Of a stretch of DNA of 33,357 bases, positions 8,948-30,966 are shown piece after piece; position 1 is the first letter of the stretch; every line of letters starts with the position of its first letter. The notes beneath the pieces were generated by a model, which did no database searches, was not told where the DNA came from, and saw nothing but the letters and a program-made list of their open reading frames with translations. Source of the stretch: Cenarchaeum sp. SB0675_bin_21. GTDB taxonomy: Archaea; Thermoproteota; Nitrososphaeria; Nitrososphaerales; Nitrosopumilaceae. The DNA lies in the NCBI GenBank assembly GCA_009843815.1, contig VYCS01000037.1:1-33357 (forward strand), read 5' to 3'. The position numbers were made by a program, and so were the translations under genes.

Positions 8948-9070
8948 GTGAGCGGTATGCCTGTAATTGAGTCTGAAGAATCATCGGATTACAAGCGCAT
9001 ACTGGTTGCGGGTGTGTTGGGCAGCACAAGGTCAGGCGGTGTGAACGCTCTTGTTTATTCAGAGCGGACG
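8948..9070 (+). pseudogene. Truncated 5' gene fragment ending at the tnpB element
   Basis: From GTG 8948 (in frame with ATG 8957) the sequence reads as convincing protein for ~41 codons (IESEESSDYKRILVAGVLGS, then ALVYSERT). It then runs into the terminal inverted repeat of the tnpB element at 9071 and stops at 9092-9094 within it. A TATA-like box sits at the expected distance. No obvious continuation is found past the other end of the element (10682 onward): two frames stop within five codons and the third is AT-rich and unconvincing. I read this as the N-terminal remnant of a gene broken by the element or by a deletion beside it. The family is not recognised. A genuine 45-48-residue peptide that borrows the repeat for its stop is the alternative. 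Confidence 0.45.
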
Positions 9071-9093
9071 GGTTCCTCCCGCAAAGTCGGGTG
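9071..9093. repeat. Terminal inverted repeat, 3' (right) end of tnpB element 1
   Basis: These 23 bases (GGTTCCTCCCGC, then AAAGTCGGGTG) are the exact reverse complement of 10659-10681. CCCG 9078-9081 and CGGG 9088-9091 can pair. In tnpB orientation this is the end of the putative omega RNA, after which a guide would begin at 9070 and run leftward. Confidence 0.85.
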
Positions 9094-9220
9094 ATGTCAC
9101 ATCACCACGCGGGATAGTCTGTCGGCCCAGTTGCTCCAGCAACCCTGTATGAGTGGGGTGGGATCGAGTATTACATCCACACCACGACGGACTTCGCCCA
9201 GACTGGTCGAAACCTTACGA
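9071..9220 (-). ncRNA. Putative omega RNA of tnpB element 1 (5' limit approximate)
   Basis: TnpB elements produce a guide scaffold from the 3' end of tnpB through the right end of the element. Here two adjacent stem-loops fit that position: GGTGATG/CATCACC (9090-9106, stop codon in the loop) and CCCG/CGGG (9078-9091), which compete for two bases. A guide would start with CGTCCGCTCTGAATAAAC, minus strand from 9070 down. The upstream limit of 9220 is only a guess from typical scaffold length; no promoter or processing site was identified. Confidence 0.35.
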
Positions 9221-10647
9221 CCATACCGGGATACGGCGCTTGTTCGCCGTATGTTCTCCACTGCGTTGACGTCACGATCTACGCCAACTGTACGGCAGTG
9301 GGTGCAGTCTTTTTTATGATAAGTTCCAGTTAGTGGGGTTCTGCATGCAGCGCAGAACTTGGATGTGTTGTGTGGACGCATATGTAGTGCCTCCGCCCCC
9401 AAAAATTGGGACTTTTCATAAATTAAATTCGATGCCTTTCGCATCATGGCAGAATATAATCTGCGACGCAAGCTGCGTCCAAACTTTCCCCCCTTCTGCC
9501 AATTATACGATATATGGGTTAAATCCTCCAACATAACCAAACACCCGGATTGTGCGGCCCACTGTGCTATACATAATGCTATTACGTTCAGCACGTGTTC
9601 GTGGCGGCGCATGGCTTTAGTCACCCTGTGTTTTTTATCATTCTTTTTTGACTTTGTGTGGTTATGCTGTATGTTTAATATGCATTTATTCATCTGCCAC
9701 TTTATCTCGGCGGCCTTCTTGTGTTTGCCCTCCCTCTTGAGTTTCTTGTATCTGCGTTTGAGTTTGCCATATAGTTTGGGACCGCCATGTGTGACTTGTT
9801 GCCTTTCTCTGCGCTCCTCTTTCTTGTGTACAACGCGCCTTCCGGTACGTGCCGCATATGTGATATTATCATGTATACGTGTATACGTATTGTTTGCATC
9901 CTCAGTCTTTGCCTCCTCAATGGCCTGTATGGTATTAGATAGATCAAACCGTACCATCGTGTTTTTATCACCTACGGTGATGTTCTTTTCATTAATATCA
10001 ACGCCAATCACATCTTTTGGTGTGCCGCCCACATACCCCACATCCGTAAGTAGTTCAATAATCTCCGACTTGCCGTATGGGTGGGGTTTTTCAACCTTGG
10101 GCACTTTGTTGTAATATGTTATCGTATATATGGTTGGCGTGATCCACAACTCACCTAGTTCATTTTGTCCTATTCTGCGTACCACATCTGAAGAGACGGG
10201 AATTGCTATCATATGTGGATATTTTGATGAGCCAACATTTGCAACAGCCATATATCCACCCGCTATCGGATTCAGCCTCCAATCTTGGTTTTTCAACTTT
10301 ACAACCGGATTACGAAAGACGGGCTCAGACACCTTCATGCCCTGCGCAGTCTTTGTATTGTACGTTTTATGGGCGGCAACCCCGTCCCGTATGGCGGTCT
10401 GCGTTATGGATGAACGTACTTTGGGGTCAGGATCGCGCATTGTACTATACATCAATGCATTAACACCATAGGTATCCTTCCCCGTGTTATTTGCTATAAT
10501 GTACGCCACTTCTGCCACCTTCCTGACATGCCCAAACACATGCCACATATCCAAATTTTTTGCGTATGGACGTGTTACTGCCCTGCTATTTTTTACTGAT
10601 GACACTATACAGTACGGTTCAATGGTGTATTTAACATCATCTAACAC
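9097..10647 (-). CDS. tnpB: TnpB, RuvC-like RNA-guided nuclease (element 1)
   Basis: The 516-residue protein has an intact RuvC-like core: D217 in VIGVDINEKN, E374 in VMLEDLTHI, and aspartates 457/459 in VGVDRDVNAVENI. A zinc ribbon with C432, C435, C448 and C451 lies between the last two motifs. A highly basic helical stretch fills ~270-345. TnpB proteins bind an omega RNA made from the 3' end of their own gene and cut DNA next to a short TAM; they help the element persist rather than catalyse transposition. It is longer than the usual ~400 residues because of a ~200-residue N-terminal part. The start is GTG 10647. The TGA stop (9097-9099) forms the loop of a 7-bp hairpin (9090-9106). No frameshift is seen, so it may be active. 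Confidence 0.9.
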   Translation of the reverse strand: MLDDVKYTIEPYCIVSSVKNSRAVTRPYAKNLDMWHVFGHVRKVAEVAYIIANNTGKDTYGVNALMYSTMRDPDPKVRSSITQTAIRDGVAAHKTYNTKTAQGMKVSEPVFRNPVVKLKNQDWRLNPIAGGYMAVANVGSSKYPHMIAIPVSSDVVRRIGQNELGELWITPTIYTITYYNKVPKVEKPHPYGKSEIIELLTDVGYVGGTPKDVIGVDINEKNITVGDKNTMVRFDLSNTIQAIEEAKTEDANNTYTRIHDNITYAARTGRRVVHKKEERRERQQVTHGGPKLYGKLKRRYKKLKREGKHKKAAEIKWQMNKCILNIQHNHTKSKKNDKKHRVTKAMRRHEHVLNVIALCIAQWAAQSGCLVMLEDLTHISYNWQKGGKFGRSLRRRLYSAMMRKASNLIYEKSQFLGAEALHMRPHNTSKFCAACRTPLTGTYHKKDCTHCRTVGVDRDVNAVENIRRTSAVSRYGRKVSTSLGEVRRGVDVILDPTPLIQGCWSNWADRLSRVVM

Positions 10648-10658
10648 ACATCAACCAA

Positions 10659-10681
10659 CACCCGACTTTGCGGGAGGAACC
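10659..10681. repeat. Terminal inverted repeat, 5' (left) end of tnpB element 1
   Basis: This is the exact reverse complement of 9071-9093. Read in tnpB orientation it matches the left end of tnpB element 2 (29453-29475) at 20 of 23 positions. The tnpB start codon (10647) lies only 11 nt inside it. Confidence 0.85.
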
Positions 10682-10752
10682 AGCATCTGTAATATGTAGG
10701 CCAGAATTCTCAGTGTTTATTATATCGAATTATTTTGATTATACAGAATTTA

Positions 10753-24216: not shown

Positions 24217-24858
24217 TTACTCGACTATTACACTGCCAATCATCCAAGGATGTACGAGACAGAAGTATGGATATGTGCCAGGCTCTTCAAATGTATGTGA
24301 AAAGACTGTACCTCCCATAACAAGACTACTATCAAAGACGCCACTAGGCCCATCTTGAGGAGACCCAGAAGTTACAGTGTGGGCAGCAACATCATTATTC
24401 ACCCAGTTTACTGTATCACCCACCAGAATAGTAAGGTATGAGGGTTGAAAGCATGTATCATCTAGTTCGCAGCCCGGAACAGATGTTCCTTCAGGAGTTA
24501 TTACATCCCATGCGAGAGGGCCTACAGGGACCTCTTCAATGATTTCAGATTCTATCTCTTCAGGCATGGCATCATCGGCTGCCTCTTCAGGTACAGCAGC
24601 ATCGGCTGCCTCTTCAGGTACAGCAGCATCGGCTGCCTCTTCAGGCATGGTATCAGACTGTTCTCTTACCTGTGCTGCATCATCCGCAAAGGGATCATTG
24701 GTAGCAGTACTTGTGCTGGGTGCTGAGGAGGTGGTTGGCATAGCAATAGGCGCATCAATTGATGGAAGTTGGTTTGACGTCCCTGCAAATGCAATTGCCA
24801 CTGCAACTGCAGCAATTCCAATCGACCATCCAATCGCAGCTTTATCTACACTTGACAT
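24217..24858 (-). CDS. Membrane-anchored amicyanin-like cupredoxin with PEEAADAA repeats
   Basis: The 213-residue protein has one N-terminal membrane segment (9-26, IGWSIGIAAVAVAIAFAG), then a Ser/Thr/Pro-rich linker, an acidic repeat region (71-99, three 9-residue units of the type PEEAADAAV) and a C-terminal cupredoxin (~113-213). All type 1 copper ligands are visible: H160 in AAHTVTSG, and C200, H203 and M206 in YPYFCLVHPWMIGSV, with amicyanin-like spacing. An added cysteine pair (C130, C136) also occurs in the cupredoxin at 4105-5409. It probably faces the outside of the cell and carries single electrons; such blue-copper proteins are abundant in ammonia-oxidising archaea. The partner is unknown. 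It is convergent with uvrC (31-nt gap). Confidence 0.87.
   Translation of the reverse strand: MSSVDKAAIGWSIGIAAVAVAIAFAGTSNQLPSIDAPIAMPTTSSAPSTSTATNDPFADDAAQVREQSDTMPEEAADAAVPEEAADAAVPEEAADDAMPEEIESEIIEEVPVGPLAWDVITPEGTSVPGCELDDTCFQPSYLTILVGDTVNWVNNDVAAHTVTSGSPQDGPSGVFDSSLVMGGTVFSHTFEEPGTYPYFCLVHPWMIGSVIVE
24574..24645 (-). repeat. 27-nt tandem repeat in the cupredoxin linker
   Basis: Units start at 24574, 24601 and 24628, with period 27 nt. The first two are identical as read and the third matches for 18 nt. They encode the (PEEAADAAV)n acidic linker, a region where copy number probably varies between strains. Confidence 0.85.
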
Positions 24859-25304: not shown

Positions 25305-27089
25305 ATGAAGAGTGTATTTTTGGTGGCGGCAATATCCATAACACTGGCCATCACCTTGGCAGAGGCGCAGATAGATGACTACCCCATATGTCAGAGTGAC
25401 TCTATGACTAATGATTCTGGACTTAGCGATTATGATCAAACGCGCCAAATCTTAGCACAGCAGATGCTAGACAGGGCCATAGAGGCGTTTGCACTCGACC
25501 CGACAACTGCCATGGCACAGATACAGGATACGGCAAATCCCCTATACCATGATGGTGAGTTGTATGTCTTTATGTTGGATATAAACGGCACCATAGTGGC
25601 TCACGGCATCACTCCGGATCTTGTGGGGGTTAGCACCTATTCACTCATTGACATTCGGGGCACCAATATTGGCGATATCTTGAATGAGAGCCGTTCACCA
25701 TATGGCAAGTGGGCGGAGTATTGGTGGCCCAATCCGGCTACTGAGACCAATGATCCAGAGATAAAGATAACATGGACAAAGACATATGGGAACTATCAAT
25801 TTGCGGTTGGCATGTATCCGGGTACTACCAGTATGGTGAAACTAGATGATGTAGATGGGCAGACCAAGAGGATAATCTATCAGATGGTGGATAATGCCAT
25901 AGATGCATTTGTAGCCGACAAGGACTCTGCCATAGCGGCCATTCAAGATCCCACAAACTCGCTATATCATGATGGGGAACTGTACGTCTTTGTACATAGT
26001 CATGCTGGAAAGATAGTGGCGCATGGAACCATGCCCGAACTTGTGGGCGTAGATAGTTACTCCTTTACAGATACGCAGGGTACCAATCTTGGCGAACTCA
26101 TATTGGATAATAGATCATCGTATGGAAAGTGGTATGAATATTGGTGGCCCAGTCCGGCCACTGAGACCGATGAGGAGGAGAGAAAGGTTGCCTGGGTAAA
26201 GAGCCACGCAGGCCACATCTTTGGTGTGGGCACATATCCAGATGCTGGTCTTGTTCAGAGGGTAGCGCTGTCTATGGAAGATAAGGAACGCCAAGAGGTA
26301 GCTTGGCAGATGGCTACCAACGCTGCCGAGGCATTCGAAGCAGATCCAACCTCAGCCACAAGCGCCATACAAGACCCTGATAACAACTTGTATCATGATG
26401 AAGAACTATACGTAACTGTGCTGGACAGTGACGCAGTTATAGTTGCACATGGTGTCAGCCCAAATTTGGTGGGGACAGATCTCTTTGCGCTCAACGATAC
26501 CCGGGGCACTAACTTTGGTGGTATATTCATTGAGAATCATTCGCCGTACGACAAATGGGTGGAGTATTGGTGGCCCAATCCGACTACTATAACAGACGAG
26601 GGAGAGTTAAAGGTGGTCATCATGGTGGATCGTGGCGAACACACCTTTACAGTTGGCACATACCCAAAGATGGAAGGTACGTGTATGATTGATACAGATG
26701 AGTCTGAGAAGCGACGGATTGCAAAGGCCATGGTGGAGAAGGCCATTGCCGCGTACTCCAAGGATCCTGTTTCTGCCAGCAAGGCCATAGCAGATACGAC
26801 AAACCCACTGTATCACGATGGAGAGTTGTATGTCGTTGTAGTTCACATAAATGGAACCATGGTTGCTCATGGTGCCACGCCAGATCTGGTGGGCGTCAGT
26901 AACTACGATCTTGTTGATGTACAAGGTACTAACATGGGAGAACTCTTAATGGAACATCCATCACCATACGGCCAATGGCTGGAGTACTGGTGGCCCAATC
27001 CGGCTACTGAGACAGATGAGGCGGAAAGAAAGATCAGTTGGGCCAAGTCCAGCTCCAGCCACGTCTTTGTAGTGGGACTTTACCCGTAA
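25305..27089 (+). CDS. Secreted protein of four tandem Cache-like sensor repeats
   Basis: A signal peptide (1-22, ending LAEAQ) is followed by four homologous units at about 45-172, 185-312, 328-454 and 468-594, period ~140. Each has a helix (MLDRAIEAFALDP), then LYHDGELYVF..., a VAHG..P.LVG.. motif, D..GTN.G, SPYGKWxEYWWPNPAT and a final FAVGxYP strand. This is the pattern of Cache-type ligand-binding domains, usually found singly or doubly outside the membrane in chemoreceptors and kinases. Here there is no transmembrane segment, HAMP or signalling domain after them, so the 594-residue protein is probably exported and free or bound to the surface layer. Binding of small carboxylates or other solutes is an inference from the family. 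Confidence 0.85.
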   Translation: MKSVFLVAAISITLAITLAEAQIDDYPICQSDSMTNDSGLSDYDQTRQILAQQMLDRAIEAFALDPTTAMAQIQDTANPLYHDGELYVFMLDINGTIVAHGITPDLVGVSTYSLIDIRGTNIGDILNESRSPYGKWAEYWWPNPATETNDPEIKITWTKTYGNYQFAVGMYPGTTSMVKLDDVDGQTKRIIYQMVDNAIDAFVADKDSAIAAIQDPTNSLYHDGELYVFVHSHAGKIVAHGTMPELVGVDSYSFTDTQGTNLGELILDNRSSYGKWYEYWWPSPATETDEEERKVAWVKSHAGHIFGVGTYPDAGLVQRVALSMEDKERQEVAWQMATNAAEAFEADPTSATSAIQDPDNNLYHDEELYVTVLDSDAVIVAHGVSPNLVGTDLFALNDTRGTNFGGIFIENHSPYDKWVEYWWPNPTTITDEGELKVVIMVDRGEHTFTVGTYPKMEGTCMIDTDESEKRRIAKAMVEKAIAAYSKDPVSASKAIADTTNPLYHDGELYVVVVHINGTMVAHGATPDLVGVSNYDLVDVQGTNMGELLMEHPSPYGQWLEYWWPNPATETDEAERKISWAKSSSSHVFVVGLYP

Positions 27090-28565: not shown

Positions 28566-29384
28566 TTAGACTCGTCTTCCGCGTTTTCCGCCTTTCTTCC
28601 TAGTGGTATCATGAGGAATTGGTGTGACATCATCTATACGACCTATACGGAATGCGCCCAGTCCAGAATCTGGATCATCATCTTTGTTTGATGTGGCCCT
28701 TGCCAGTGCCCTAATGGCTGCCTGCGCACCAGGTCCTGGAACTCGAGAGCCCACGCCGCCAACCGCACGGACGCGAATGTGAAATCCTGTAAATCCTCTA
28801 GCGCGTGCAACATCTACCACCGCATTGGCTGCCTTCATGGCGGCAAATGGGGATGACTCATATCTATCTGCATTAGAGTGCTGTCCGCCAGAGCTTATGG
28901 CTATAGTTTCAGCACCCGTAAGGTCAGTCAAATGTATTATTGTATTGTTAAAACTACTAAAGATGTGGGCTATGCCCCATTTTTCAGGTTTATCAGCTAT
29001 AACTGCAGGCTGTCCATCGCCAAAGTCATCATCAAGTCTTCCATCTGCGATCATAGCATCAATTTTAGCACGCGCCTCCTCGGATAATTCACGGGGTTTT
29101 TTTGGGTCGGGTTCTGCAGCATCATCGGACTTTATACCCGAATCCTTGCTCAACTGGTCTGTCTCAATGTCAGCATCACTAGGTTCTGCAGCATCATCGG
29201 ACTTTATACCCGAATCCTTGCTCAACTGGTCTGTCTCAATGTCAGCATCACTAGGTTCTGCAGCAGACATATCAGGTTCAATCACATCATCAGGTGTTGG
29301 GTCAGTTGCCGGTTCTGCAGTCGCATCCAAGTTTGCGTCTGTTTCAGTGACAGAATCAGTTACATCCGTCTCCACGTTTTCCAT
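28566..29384 (-). CDS. rps11: 30S ribosomal protein S11 with long acidic N-terminal extension
   Basis: The C-terminal ~130 residues are a normal archaeal S11 core: [69 protein letters not shown] and the basic end. S11 binds 16S rRNA in the platform of the small subunit. The first ~130 residues are a very acidic, Asp/Glu/Ser-rich, probably disordered extension containing two perfect copies of a 24-residue unit (begins [18 protein letters not shown]). Usual archaeal S11 is about 130 residues long, so this 272-residue form is twice that. I choose ATG 29384; GTG 29396 is possible. A TATA-like CATAATTG lies about 20-33 nt upstream of the two candidates. tnpB element 2 ends 56-68 nt upstream of the start. 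Confidence 0.9.
29110..29253 (-). repeat. Perfect 72-nt tandem duplication in the rps11 extension
   Basis: Units 29110-29181 and 29182-29253 are identical as read, and a 12-nt start of a third copy follows (29254-29265). The length is a multiple of three, so the frame is kept and 24 residues are duplicated. Lack of any difference suggests a recent duplication. Confidence 0.92.
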
Positions 29385-29444
29385 GTCTTTGCTCACATCG
29401 GCAGTCAAGTAACAATTATGCCAATATGGGTTTAAAAAACATTG

Positions 29445-29452
29445 GGAATTGC
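29445..29452. repeat. Left 8-bp direct repeat flanking tnpB element 2
   Basis: GGAATTGC ends at the base before the left terminal repeat (29453) and is identical to 30967-30974. Confidence 0.7.
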
Positions 29453-29475
29453 GATTCCTCCCGCAAGGACGGGTG
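29453..29475. repeat. Left terminal inverted repeat of tnpB element 2
   Basis: The sequence is GATTCCTCCCGC, then AAGGACGGGTG. CCCG and CGGG inside it can pair as a hairpin. It matches the element 1 left end (10681 to 10659, minus strand) at 20/23. Confidence 0.75.
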
Positions 29476-29529
29476 CTATGTATCACACCTCAACTATCTT
29501 TTTAAGCATGTAGACCGTACTGTACGTCA

Positions 29530-30924
29530 ATGGTACTGCGCACATACACATTCGGCGTTAGATTCCGTAAAGGGTTCAAGAAGGAGATGTTGGCCAGACA
29601 GGCCGGCATGGACAGGTACGTGTATAACAAACTATTGGAAACCTTCAAGGAGGAGTACCGTCGAGCTGGGAGGGTCAACACTACGCGTGGTAGGATAAAC
29701 GCGTGGTATACGGACTTGCGCAACCATTCAGGTCCGCGTTGGATGCGTCAATCCATATCCGGGGTGACGCGCCAAATATTACATGACTTGGGCAGGCATT
29801 ATGACCAATATGTGGAAACAGAGAAGCTGAAGGCTGTCAACATCAAACCTAAGGCGGAGTTTGGTGAACCGCACTTTAAGAAATATGGAGGTCACATCTC
29901 CATCCCGTTTACAATAACGCATGATGGCACTATTGGTCAAGCGCGCTTCACCGATACACGTACAATCAAGATAGCCAAGATGGGCGAGGTTAAACTGTCG
30001 CGGGAGTTTCCCGTCTTGAATTACCGATACAAGACGGCCCAACTGTTTCAACTACCGGATGGCGGGTGGAGGATTACCATATCCTGTGATATACCCGATG
30101 AGAAGCCAACCGTGACGGAACCGACTGTTATTGGTATAGACCGGAATGTCGGTAATGTGGCCACACCTGACTGTGTGATGATAATACCCGAAAAGGTGGC
30201 ACGCCGCATGAACAACGCCGAAAAAACAGCCTCTAAGGCACAAAAGATAGCGTCACGCAGGCAGAAACCCGACTATACGAATCGTAAACCTGGTTCTCGA
30301 CGGTGGGTGAAAGCCGCTAAGAGGGCTGCCAAGAACAAACGCAAAGCTGCAAACATTCGAAAGACCACCGCGCATAAAATATCACGCGTTATATCGGACA
30401 GCACCACACATGCAGCCTTTGAGAAACTTCCTATACAAAACATGGCAAAGTCCGCCAAAGGTACGGAAGAAAACCCCGGCAAAAACGTTGCGCAGAAATC
30501 TGGTCTCAATAAGGCCATCCTGGAGCAGTGCTGGGGGCTGTTGGCATTACTGTTGGCGTACAAGTTGGCTGGAGAGATAATTTGGGTTGCGGCAGCGTAT
30601 ACAAGCCAACGGTGCTACTCGTGCGGTTATACACATAAGGATAACCGAGATGGTAGAAAGTTCTTGTGTAAAAAATGTGGCTACACGTATCATGCCGACT
30701 GTAATGCGGGCTCAAACATAGAGGATGGGGGGCTAAAAAAGTTGGGCTCAGAGGCCATGCATGGTCAACTAAACTTACGAAACTTGCCGGACAATACCGG
30801 CAGCACCCATGTTAAGGGGCGTCTGGACGTGGAGGGTTCTTGCGTTAGCTCCCCTGAGAAGCGTCAAGCACAGATCGGGGAACGAGATGCTCTATGCACC
30901 GTCGTCCTCTGGCGTGACGTGTGA
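29530..30924 (+). CDS. tnpB: TnpB, RuvC-like RNA-guided nuclease (element 2)
   Basis: The 464-residue protein is a canonical archaeal TnpB. It has an N-terminal domain with RTYTFGVRFRKGFKKEML and YNKLLETFKEEYRR, RuvC motifs with D204 (VIGIDRNVGN), E298 (HAAFEKLPIQNM) and D390 (YHADCNAGSNI), and a zinc ribbon C362, C365, C380, C383. All key residues are present and the frame is intact. The last ~65 residues (GLKKLGSEAMHGQ onward) lie beyond the RuvC core, where the gene sequence doubles as omega RNA. It is not closely similar to TnpB of element 1, whose N-terminal half is unrelated by eye. The start is ATG 29530. The enzyme cuts DNA complementary to the guide adjoining the right end, next to a TAM, favouring retention of the element. 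Confidence 0.92.
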   Translation: MVLRTYTFGVRFRKGFKKEMLARQAGMDRYVYNKLLETFKEEYRRAGRVNTTRGRINAWYTDLRNHSGPRWMRQSISGVTRQILHDLGRHYDQYVETEKLKAVNIKPKAEFGEPHFKKYGGHISIPFTITHDGTIGQARFTDTRTIKIAKMGEVKLSREFPVLNYRYKTAQLFQLPDGGWRITISCDIPDEKPTVTEPTVIGIDRNVGNVATPDCVMIIPEKVARRMNNAEKTASKAQKIASRRQKPDYTNRKPGSRRWVKAAKRAAKNKRKAANIRKTTAHKISRVISDSTTHAAFEKLPIQNMAKSAKGTEENPGKNVAQKSGLNKAILEQCWGLLALLLAYKLAGEIIWVAAAYTSQRCYSCGYTHKDNRDGRKFLCKKCGYTYHADCNAGSNIEDGGLKKLGSEAMHGQLNLRNLPDNTGSTHVKGRLDVEGSCVSSPEKRQAQIGERDALCTVVLWRDV

Positions 30925-30966
30925 TGTATTGTGGATGCGGGAACCCCCGTGCTTGCAGTAGGAACC
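30820..30966 (+). ncRNA. Putative omega RNA of tnpB element 2 (5' limit approximate)
   Basis: By analogy with TnpB systems the scaffold should run from the end of tnpB to the element end. A CGGG-AACC-CCCG hairpin (30938-30949) and the inverted repeat close it, and the guide would begin at 30967 (GGAATTGCACCAATAATA). The 5' limit is a guess from typical length. Confidence 0.35.
30944..30966. repeat. Right terminal inverted repeat of tnpB element 2
   Basis: The reverse complement of this stretch begins GGTTCCTACTGCAAGCACGG and aligns with the left end at 18 of 23 positions. It overlaps a small hairpin (CGGG 30938-30941, CCCG 30946-30949) typical of IS200/IS605-type right ends. Confidence 0.65.

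Follow-up and report, generated by a model that had tools for sequence, protein, structure and literature searches.

In the genome of Cenarchaeum sp. SB0675_bin_21, a sponge-symbiont archaeon, two families of tnpB elements combine inverted ends with target duplications of 8 bp, as is typical of DDE transposons, and in these respects differ from known bacterial and archaeal TnpB elements. We describe one of them, element A1, a non-autonomous 1,611-bp element at positions 9,071–10,681 (minus strand) of the window, which is the whole 33,357-nt stretch analyzed here and corresponds to contig C36 of the genome (G000; 1.61 Mb in 48 contigs, 99.6% complete). A1 is probably an IS6-like element that is moved in trans and in which homing by TnpB and a guide RNA favors insertions next to a target-adjacent motif (TAM). 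The observations behind this reading are of ends shared with an IS6-like element, target duplications with matching empty sites, a motif next to the duplications that is rare at IS6-like insertions, and purifying selection on tnpB. Comparisons were to two congener genomes, G245 and G246, which with G000 are the three genomes of the genus compared here.

The ends of A1 form a perfect 23-nt inverted repeat, as a first-pass annotation of the window had stated. Positions 9,071–9,093 (GGTTCCTCCCGCAAAGTCGGGTG) are the exact reverse complement of 10,659–10,681, at 96% identity the repeat can be extended to 26 nt, and the probability of a perfect 23-nt inverted repeat at this spacing by chance is negligible. 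On the minus strand, the left terminal inverted repeat lies on the 5′ side of tnpB (10,659–10,681; GGTTCCTCCCGCAAAGTCGGGTG) and the right on its 3′ side (9,071–9,093; CACCCGACTTTGCGGGAGGAACC), where it is also the predicted end of a guide-RNA scaffold. The element holds tnpB alone (9,097–10,647, minus strand; 516 residues, GTG start, TGA stop). Its stop codon (TCA on the plus strand, 9,097–9,099) forms the loop of a hairpin at 9,090–9,106, GGTGATG-TGA-CATCACC on the minus strand and GGTGATG-TCA-CATCACC on the plus strand. Both the gene content and the hairpin agree with the first-pass annotation. The 7-bp stem is restricted to copies A1, A2, and A8; the remaining copies have a shorter GGTG..CACC stem that still holds the stop codon in its loop. 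In a few copies this stem is broken or weakened. The first-pass annotation had named displaced boundaries or unmatched ends in related copies as evidence against the element. A1-type ends were found again on both sides of other copies, with ends that match each other and boundaries that are identical, including those of nine other two-ended copies of the same family, family A.

The A1 protein is classified by profile and by the D-E-D residues of a RuvC-like domain as a TnpB, with predicted nuclease activity. Its match to Pfam TNB (9e-6, 26.2 bits) is just below the cut-off of 26.3, and sibling copies match guided_TnpB (7e-10) and Cas12f2 (2e-8). Residues D217 (GVDIN), E374 (LEDL), and D457/D459 (VDRDVNA), assigned to RuvC by eye, are invariant in the five intact copies of family A, across which the Cys zinc-ribbon region is also conserved. 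The protein had no significant match among solved structures. Between tnpB copies, dN/dS is 0.18–0.29, a pattern of codon change that indicates purifying selection.

Ends of the A1 type are numerous in the genome and are shared by a second, distant TnpB. The end sequence occurs 31 times in G000 with at most one mismatch (a reversed control occurs 0 times) and is confined to the three genomes of the genus among 250 genomes of the taxonomic family; neither a relative of the element nor the end sequence was found in viral contigs. Besides A1, family A includes four intact copies with TnpBs 85–91% identical, plus split, truncated, and internally deleted copies. Element B1 (29,453–30,966, plus strand), also in the window, represents family B. 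Its TnpB (464 residues) is 24% identical to the family-A TnpB, and hhalign aligned only the zinc-ribbon/RuvC-III end of the two families, weakly. The left end of B1 is the same as that of family A and its right end is related, with GGTTCCTCC(C)GCAA common to the ends of the element families. B1 is flanked by a perfect 8-bp duplication, GGAATTGC, with TTG directly upstream (candidate TAM and left target duplication, 29,442–29,452, plus strand). Short deletion derivatives also carry these ends, and copies B7 and B8 are chimeras that combine an IS6-like end with a family-B right end and have kept their duplications. Further ends of this type lie beside other tnpB remnants (C17:33842 and C12:41641 of G000), and therefore these ends may have served more than two TnpB lineages. 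Separately, G000 has about 20 further tnpB-like genes distant from both families, on contigs C44, C12, C3, C38, C47, and C15 and also on C10, C18, C28, C34, C41, C8, and others.

Target duplications of 8 bp are the rule in both families. Among 18 two-ended copies aligned in tnpB orientation (10 of family A, 8 of family B), 11 have perfect 8-bp direct repeats (A3, A5–A10, B1, B4, B7, and B8), three have repeats that agree at seven of eight positions (A2, B2, and B6), and four have no repeat (A1, A4, B3, and B5). Copy A11, in G245, and copy B8 read as 9-bp repeats. In G245, empty sites with flanks that are ∼80% identical have one copy of the repeat each for B1 and B2, and the site of A7 has a single-copy CTGATT, slightly changed in sequence. 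Because the empty sites hold a single copy, the 8-bp repeats are true target duplications.

A1 most likely lost its duplication through an adjacent rearrangement. Its left 8-bp flank, CAGATGCT (10,682–10,689, minus strand), taken as half of the lost duplication, agrees with the right flank, CGTCCGCT, at four of eight positions. The first-pass annotation had reported the same agreement and had proposed either insertion without duplication or a rearranged flank; the former does not fit the 8-bp rule of the family, while the latter does fit the surroundings of A1. An open frame interrupted by the element (MPVIESEESSDYKRILVAGVLGSTRSGGVNALVYSERT..., 8,957–9,070, plus strand) does not continue across it, a sign of a rearranged flank, and had neither a second copy in DNA searches of the three genomes nor a match in Pfam. 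With the element excluded, the intergenic gap between the neighboring genes is ∼301 bp here versus ∼84 bp in G245. The flanks of A4, which also lacks a repeat, are separated by 4.1 kb with two long open reading frames (ORFs) on one G245 contig. Intramolecular transposition of the IS6 type deletes or inverts adjoining DNA and thereby removes the duplication (PMC7986276).

The best candidate for the mover of these elements is an IS6-like transposase acting in trans. Neither a Y1 transposase (PF01797) nor a serine transposase (PF00239) was found in the 99.6%-complete genome, in searches whose controls worked. An abundant repeated IS6/IS240-like element in G246 carries the same ends (∼40 were counted), and its fragments encode a cysteine region of the SWIM-like type, a middle section, and a C-terminus (YHNYIRPHAGIGGKTPAEAAGI...). 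These pieces are homologous to three proteins of G000 with SWIM and DDE_Tnp_IS240 domains (56–66% identity in the C-terminus), and in G000 a remnant of an IS6-like C-terminus lies beside the same end at C41:18808. The absence of Y1 and serine transposases, the shared ends, this remnant, and the B7 and B8 chimeras together point to the IS6-like transposase. Since A1 holds only tnpB and no transposase, it is at best a non-autonomous derivative and not an IS6 element proper. The three SWIM-DDE genes of G000 (C13:44684, C26:1793, and C26:21808) are 53–58% identical to one another and are possibly domesticated or trans-acting transposases. Two other movers were considered and rejected. A fragment of an IS66-like gene adjoins one end in G246 (contig C54), an arrangement that looks coincidental or chimeric; the other IS66-like genes of the genus lack such ends. 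A reading as IS607, which inserts at GG without a duplication, was set aside since the GG/CC is part of the inverted ends, 8-bp duplications exist, and the genome has no serine recombinase.

Insertions are associated with a family-specific motif that lies beyond the duplication. In the three bases directly preceding the duplicated target (5′ side, tnpB strand), all 14 left flanks of family A have NTA (TTA in nine, ATA in four, and CTA in one), including the candidate TAM of A1 (TTA, 10,690–10,692, minus strand). At the same position, nine of 11 family-B flanks have TTG. Across 39 ends of the IS6-like element of G246, which lacks tnpB (both ends of one copy may be counted among them), NTA is found in five and TTG in three. 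Relative to these ends, NTA in family A and TTG in family B are enriched (Fisher tests, 5e-9 and 4e-6, respectively), and the two families differ from each other at position −1 (p 3e-5). No other offset within the 20-nt flank shows a comparable motif. The motif is not mirrored to the right of the duplication, whereas a symmetric target preference of a DDE transposase would produce such a mirror motif. The motif remains adjacent to the duplication in the 9-bp cases (A11 and B8), and TTG is present in the G245 empty sites of B1 and B2. Beside the invariant TA at −2/−1, seven of 14 family-A flanks also have TA at −9/−8, which perhaps reflects only AT richness or perhaps an extended motif.

The right end of the elements is a candidate omega (right-end) RNA, with a predicted scaffold core of ∼85 nt in A1 (9,071–9,155, minus strand) that overlaps the 3′ end of tnpB. 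These last ∼85 nt are the sole 3′ segment retained in 15 of 15 right ends, including those of derivatives without tnpB, in which everything upstream differs. A consensus fold has the stems GUUGC/GCAAC, UCCCGCA/UGCGGGA, and GGUG/CACC. The stop-codon hairpin is enclosed by the second of these, in which the UCCCGCA directly before the tnpB stop codon pairs with the UGCGGGA in the terminal repeat. The hairpin of the first-pass annotation is thus present but is nested within a stem of the terminal repeat rather than abutting an end hairpin. The suggestion in that annotation of an omega RNA 3′ structure gains from the conservation of the segment and gains nothing from folding energy, which is no better than that of shuffled sequences (z −0.2 to −0.4); the RNA assignment therefore rests on conservation and not on stability. 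Because the consensus fold also has almost no covariation, the structure is a proposal only. No match to Rfam was found. In IS200/IS605 elements, the sequence preceding the left end serves as the TAM, and the guide begins at the first base beyond the right end; by the latter rule, the guide of A1 is predicted to be CGTCCGCTCTGAATAAACAA (9,051–9,070, minus strand). Derivatives without an intact tnpB (A8, A9, and B6–B8) retain the right-end segment and the TAM-like motif, which is what TnpB action in trans on their RNAs would predict.

We propose that the chassis of A1 consists of IS6/IS240-type ends that carry tnpB and a guide-RNA end in place of a transposase. An IS6-like SWIM-DDE transposase supplied in trans would insert the element and generate an 8-bp or, rarely, a 9-bp target duplication. 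The right-end ∼85 nt would serve as the scaffold, and the guide would consist of the duplicated 8 bp and the flank beyond. As the empty site reads TAM-target-flank and the guide reads target-flank, with a target of 8 bp, the TAM must precede the left duplication. An empty site would then offer a complete protospacer with the TAM (NTA in family A, TTG in family B) directly in front. At an occupied site, the right junction has the end of the repeat (AACC) in place of a TAM, and the left junction has the TAM but just eight matching bases. Because neither junction is a full target, TnpB is predicted to cut empty alleles only, and repair from an occupied sister would copy the element, leading to homing and retention. 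Transposition in trans, guide-RNA expression, cleavage, and homing are the inferred part of this proposal. Cutting of empty alleles gives IS200/IS605 elements retention and drive (PMC10278001, PMC11870625).

Several findings weigh against the proposal, in addition to the folding energies and scant covariation of the right end. The assignment of the G246 element to IS6-like transposases is based on fragments, and its only copy with both ends (893 bp, nearly complete) is interrupted by an N gap and carries a frameshift. In G000, an intact autonomous copy bounded by these ends was not found, and the three intact SWIM-DDE genes have no recognizable ends. The AlphaFold model of the A1 TnpB, built with six sequences, is uninformative (predicted local distance difference test score of 32). 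Regarding the motif, two family-B copies have TTA instead of TTG, namely B5, which has no duplication and unreliable flanks, and B11, a copy at a contig end; the empty site of A7 reads TT- and not TTA. The motif was counted in the same copies where it was first noticed, and its control set is from a congener with a different base composition. The effect far exceeds these caveats of counting and control.

Other explanations of the motif differ in the role given to TnpB. If TnpB were a mere passenger, NTA and TTG would be an insertion preference of the moving transposase. DDE transposases can show target preferences, and the G246 IS6-like ends have a slight excess of TTA/TTG (6 of 39). But the terminal repeats of families A and B are nearly identical and yet the families differ at −1, the B7 and B8 chimeras carry the family-B motif despite an IS6-like left end, most ends of the IS6-like element itself are without the motif, and the motif is not mirrored on the right side. 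Purifying selection on tnpB, with dN/dS of about 0.2, is also unlike that expected of inert cargo. We thus consider a passenger role unlikely. Alternatively, TnpB and its RNA could recognize the TAM and steer the DDE transposase to insert directly behind it, without later filtering of insertions. Consistent with steering, 23 of 25 left flanks contain the motif, the top strand is cut directly 3′ of it in both 8- and 9-bp cases, and, by our frequency-based estimate, survival alone would have to favor TAM sites, expected at ∼4%, by roughly 90-fold. However, because an element's guide corresponds to its previous site rather than to a new target, any steering would need to be independent of the guide, and we know of no precedent for TnpB steering the insertion of a transposase. 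It is doubtful, slightly more so than a passenger role, that this is how the motif arose, and equally doubtful that TnpB and the right-end RNA share in IS6-like target choice, which would make this a TnpB-assisted DDE transposition system in archaea.

It is very improbable that A1 is an element of the IS200/IS605 or IS607 type in which the terminal repeat is the usual end hairpin and the true transposase was missed. The right end can form a short hairpin, and most known tnpB-only elements are generally placed in these groups. This assignment is contradicted by the 8-bp duplications and empty sites, the lack of Y1 and serine transposases in the genome, and the identical ends on IS6-like elements; A1 itself combines an inverted repeat with membership in a family that duplicates its target.

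The window has additional features outside A1. An ORF at 28,566–29,486 encodes ribosomal protein uS11 with a long N-terminal extension, such that uS11 starts at residue ∼170; the extension holds a perfect 72-bp tandem duplication (29,110–29,253), and when the start of the longest ORF is used, the ORF overlaps the left end of B1. A 594-residue ORF at 25,305–27,089 consists of four ∼420-nt repeats, 62–71% identical to the first, and has no match in PHROG. Four copies of a 27-nt tandem repeat are inside overlapping ORFs at 24,556–24,672.

The elements combine features of known systems. Like TnpB of IS200/IS605 elements (ISDra2 and the tnpB-only IS1341-like elements), they have a RuvC-like TnpB, a right-end RNA segment that overlaps the 3′ end of tnpB, a guide expected from the right flank, and the same logic of homing and retention (PMC10278001, PMC11870625). 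Unlike in IS200/IS605, where the TAM abuts the left end, the candidate TAM is 8–9 bp away, outside the duplication, and the genome has no Y1 TnpA. In a 2013 survey, prokaryotic tnpB-only elements had neither terminal inverted repeats nor target duplications (PMC3627910). Like IS6/IS26 elements (IS240-type DDE), they have 8-bp duplications, a repeat with a GG tip and an internal CAAA, a presumed autonomous element of ∼0.8–0.9 kb, short derivatives, and duplications that can be lost when intramolecular replicative events occur (PMC7986276). They differ in having tnpB in place of a transposase, in an unusual SWIM-bearing candidate transposase, and in a ∼20-bp end without the cTGTt motif. A review of IS6 lists one member with passenger genes (ISDsp3) and none with tnpB (PMC7986276). 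Fanzor1 and Fanzor2 are likewise TnpB relatives carried by transposons, DDE or other, that have terminal repeats and duplications; in Chlamydomonas, the duplication of the Fanzor elements CRe-1/2/3 comes after a TTTT motif (PMC3627910, PMC10711439). However, Fanzors are eukaryotic and associated with other transposase superfamilies, whereas here prokaryotic TnpBs ride on an IS6-like chassis and two TnpB lineages share one set of ends. In a search of the open-access literature, we found TnpB described neither on IS6-like ends nor in Cenarchaeum.

The elements may therefore represent a prokaryotic counterpart to eukaryotic Fanzors that ride DDE transposons. To our knowledge, the TAM and the target of the transposase are the same or overlapping motifs in known bacterial and archaeal elements, and because of this their insertion sites cannot reveal the contribution of TnpB itself. 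In Cenarchaeum, the two causes are separable in nature because the chassis lacks the motif and two TnpB lineages share that chassis, each with its own motif. The arrangement would allow the TAMs of two TnpBs to be predicted with no need for an assay and provide a natural test of selection for homing and retention.
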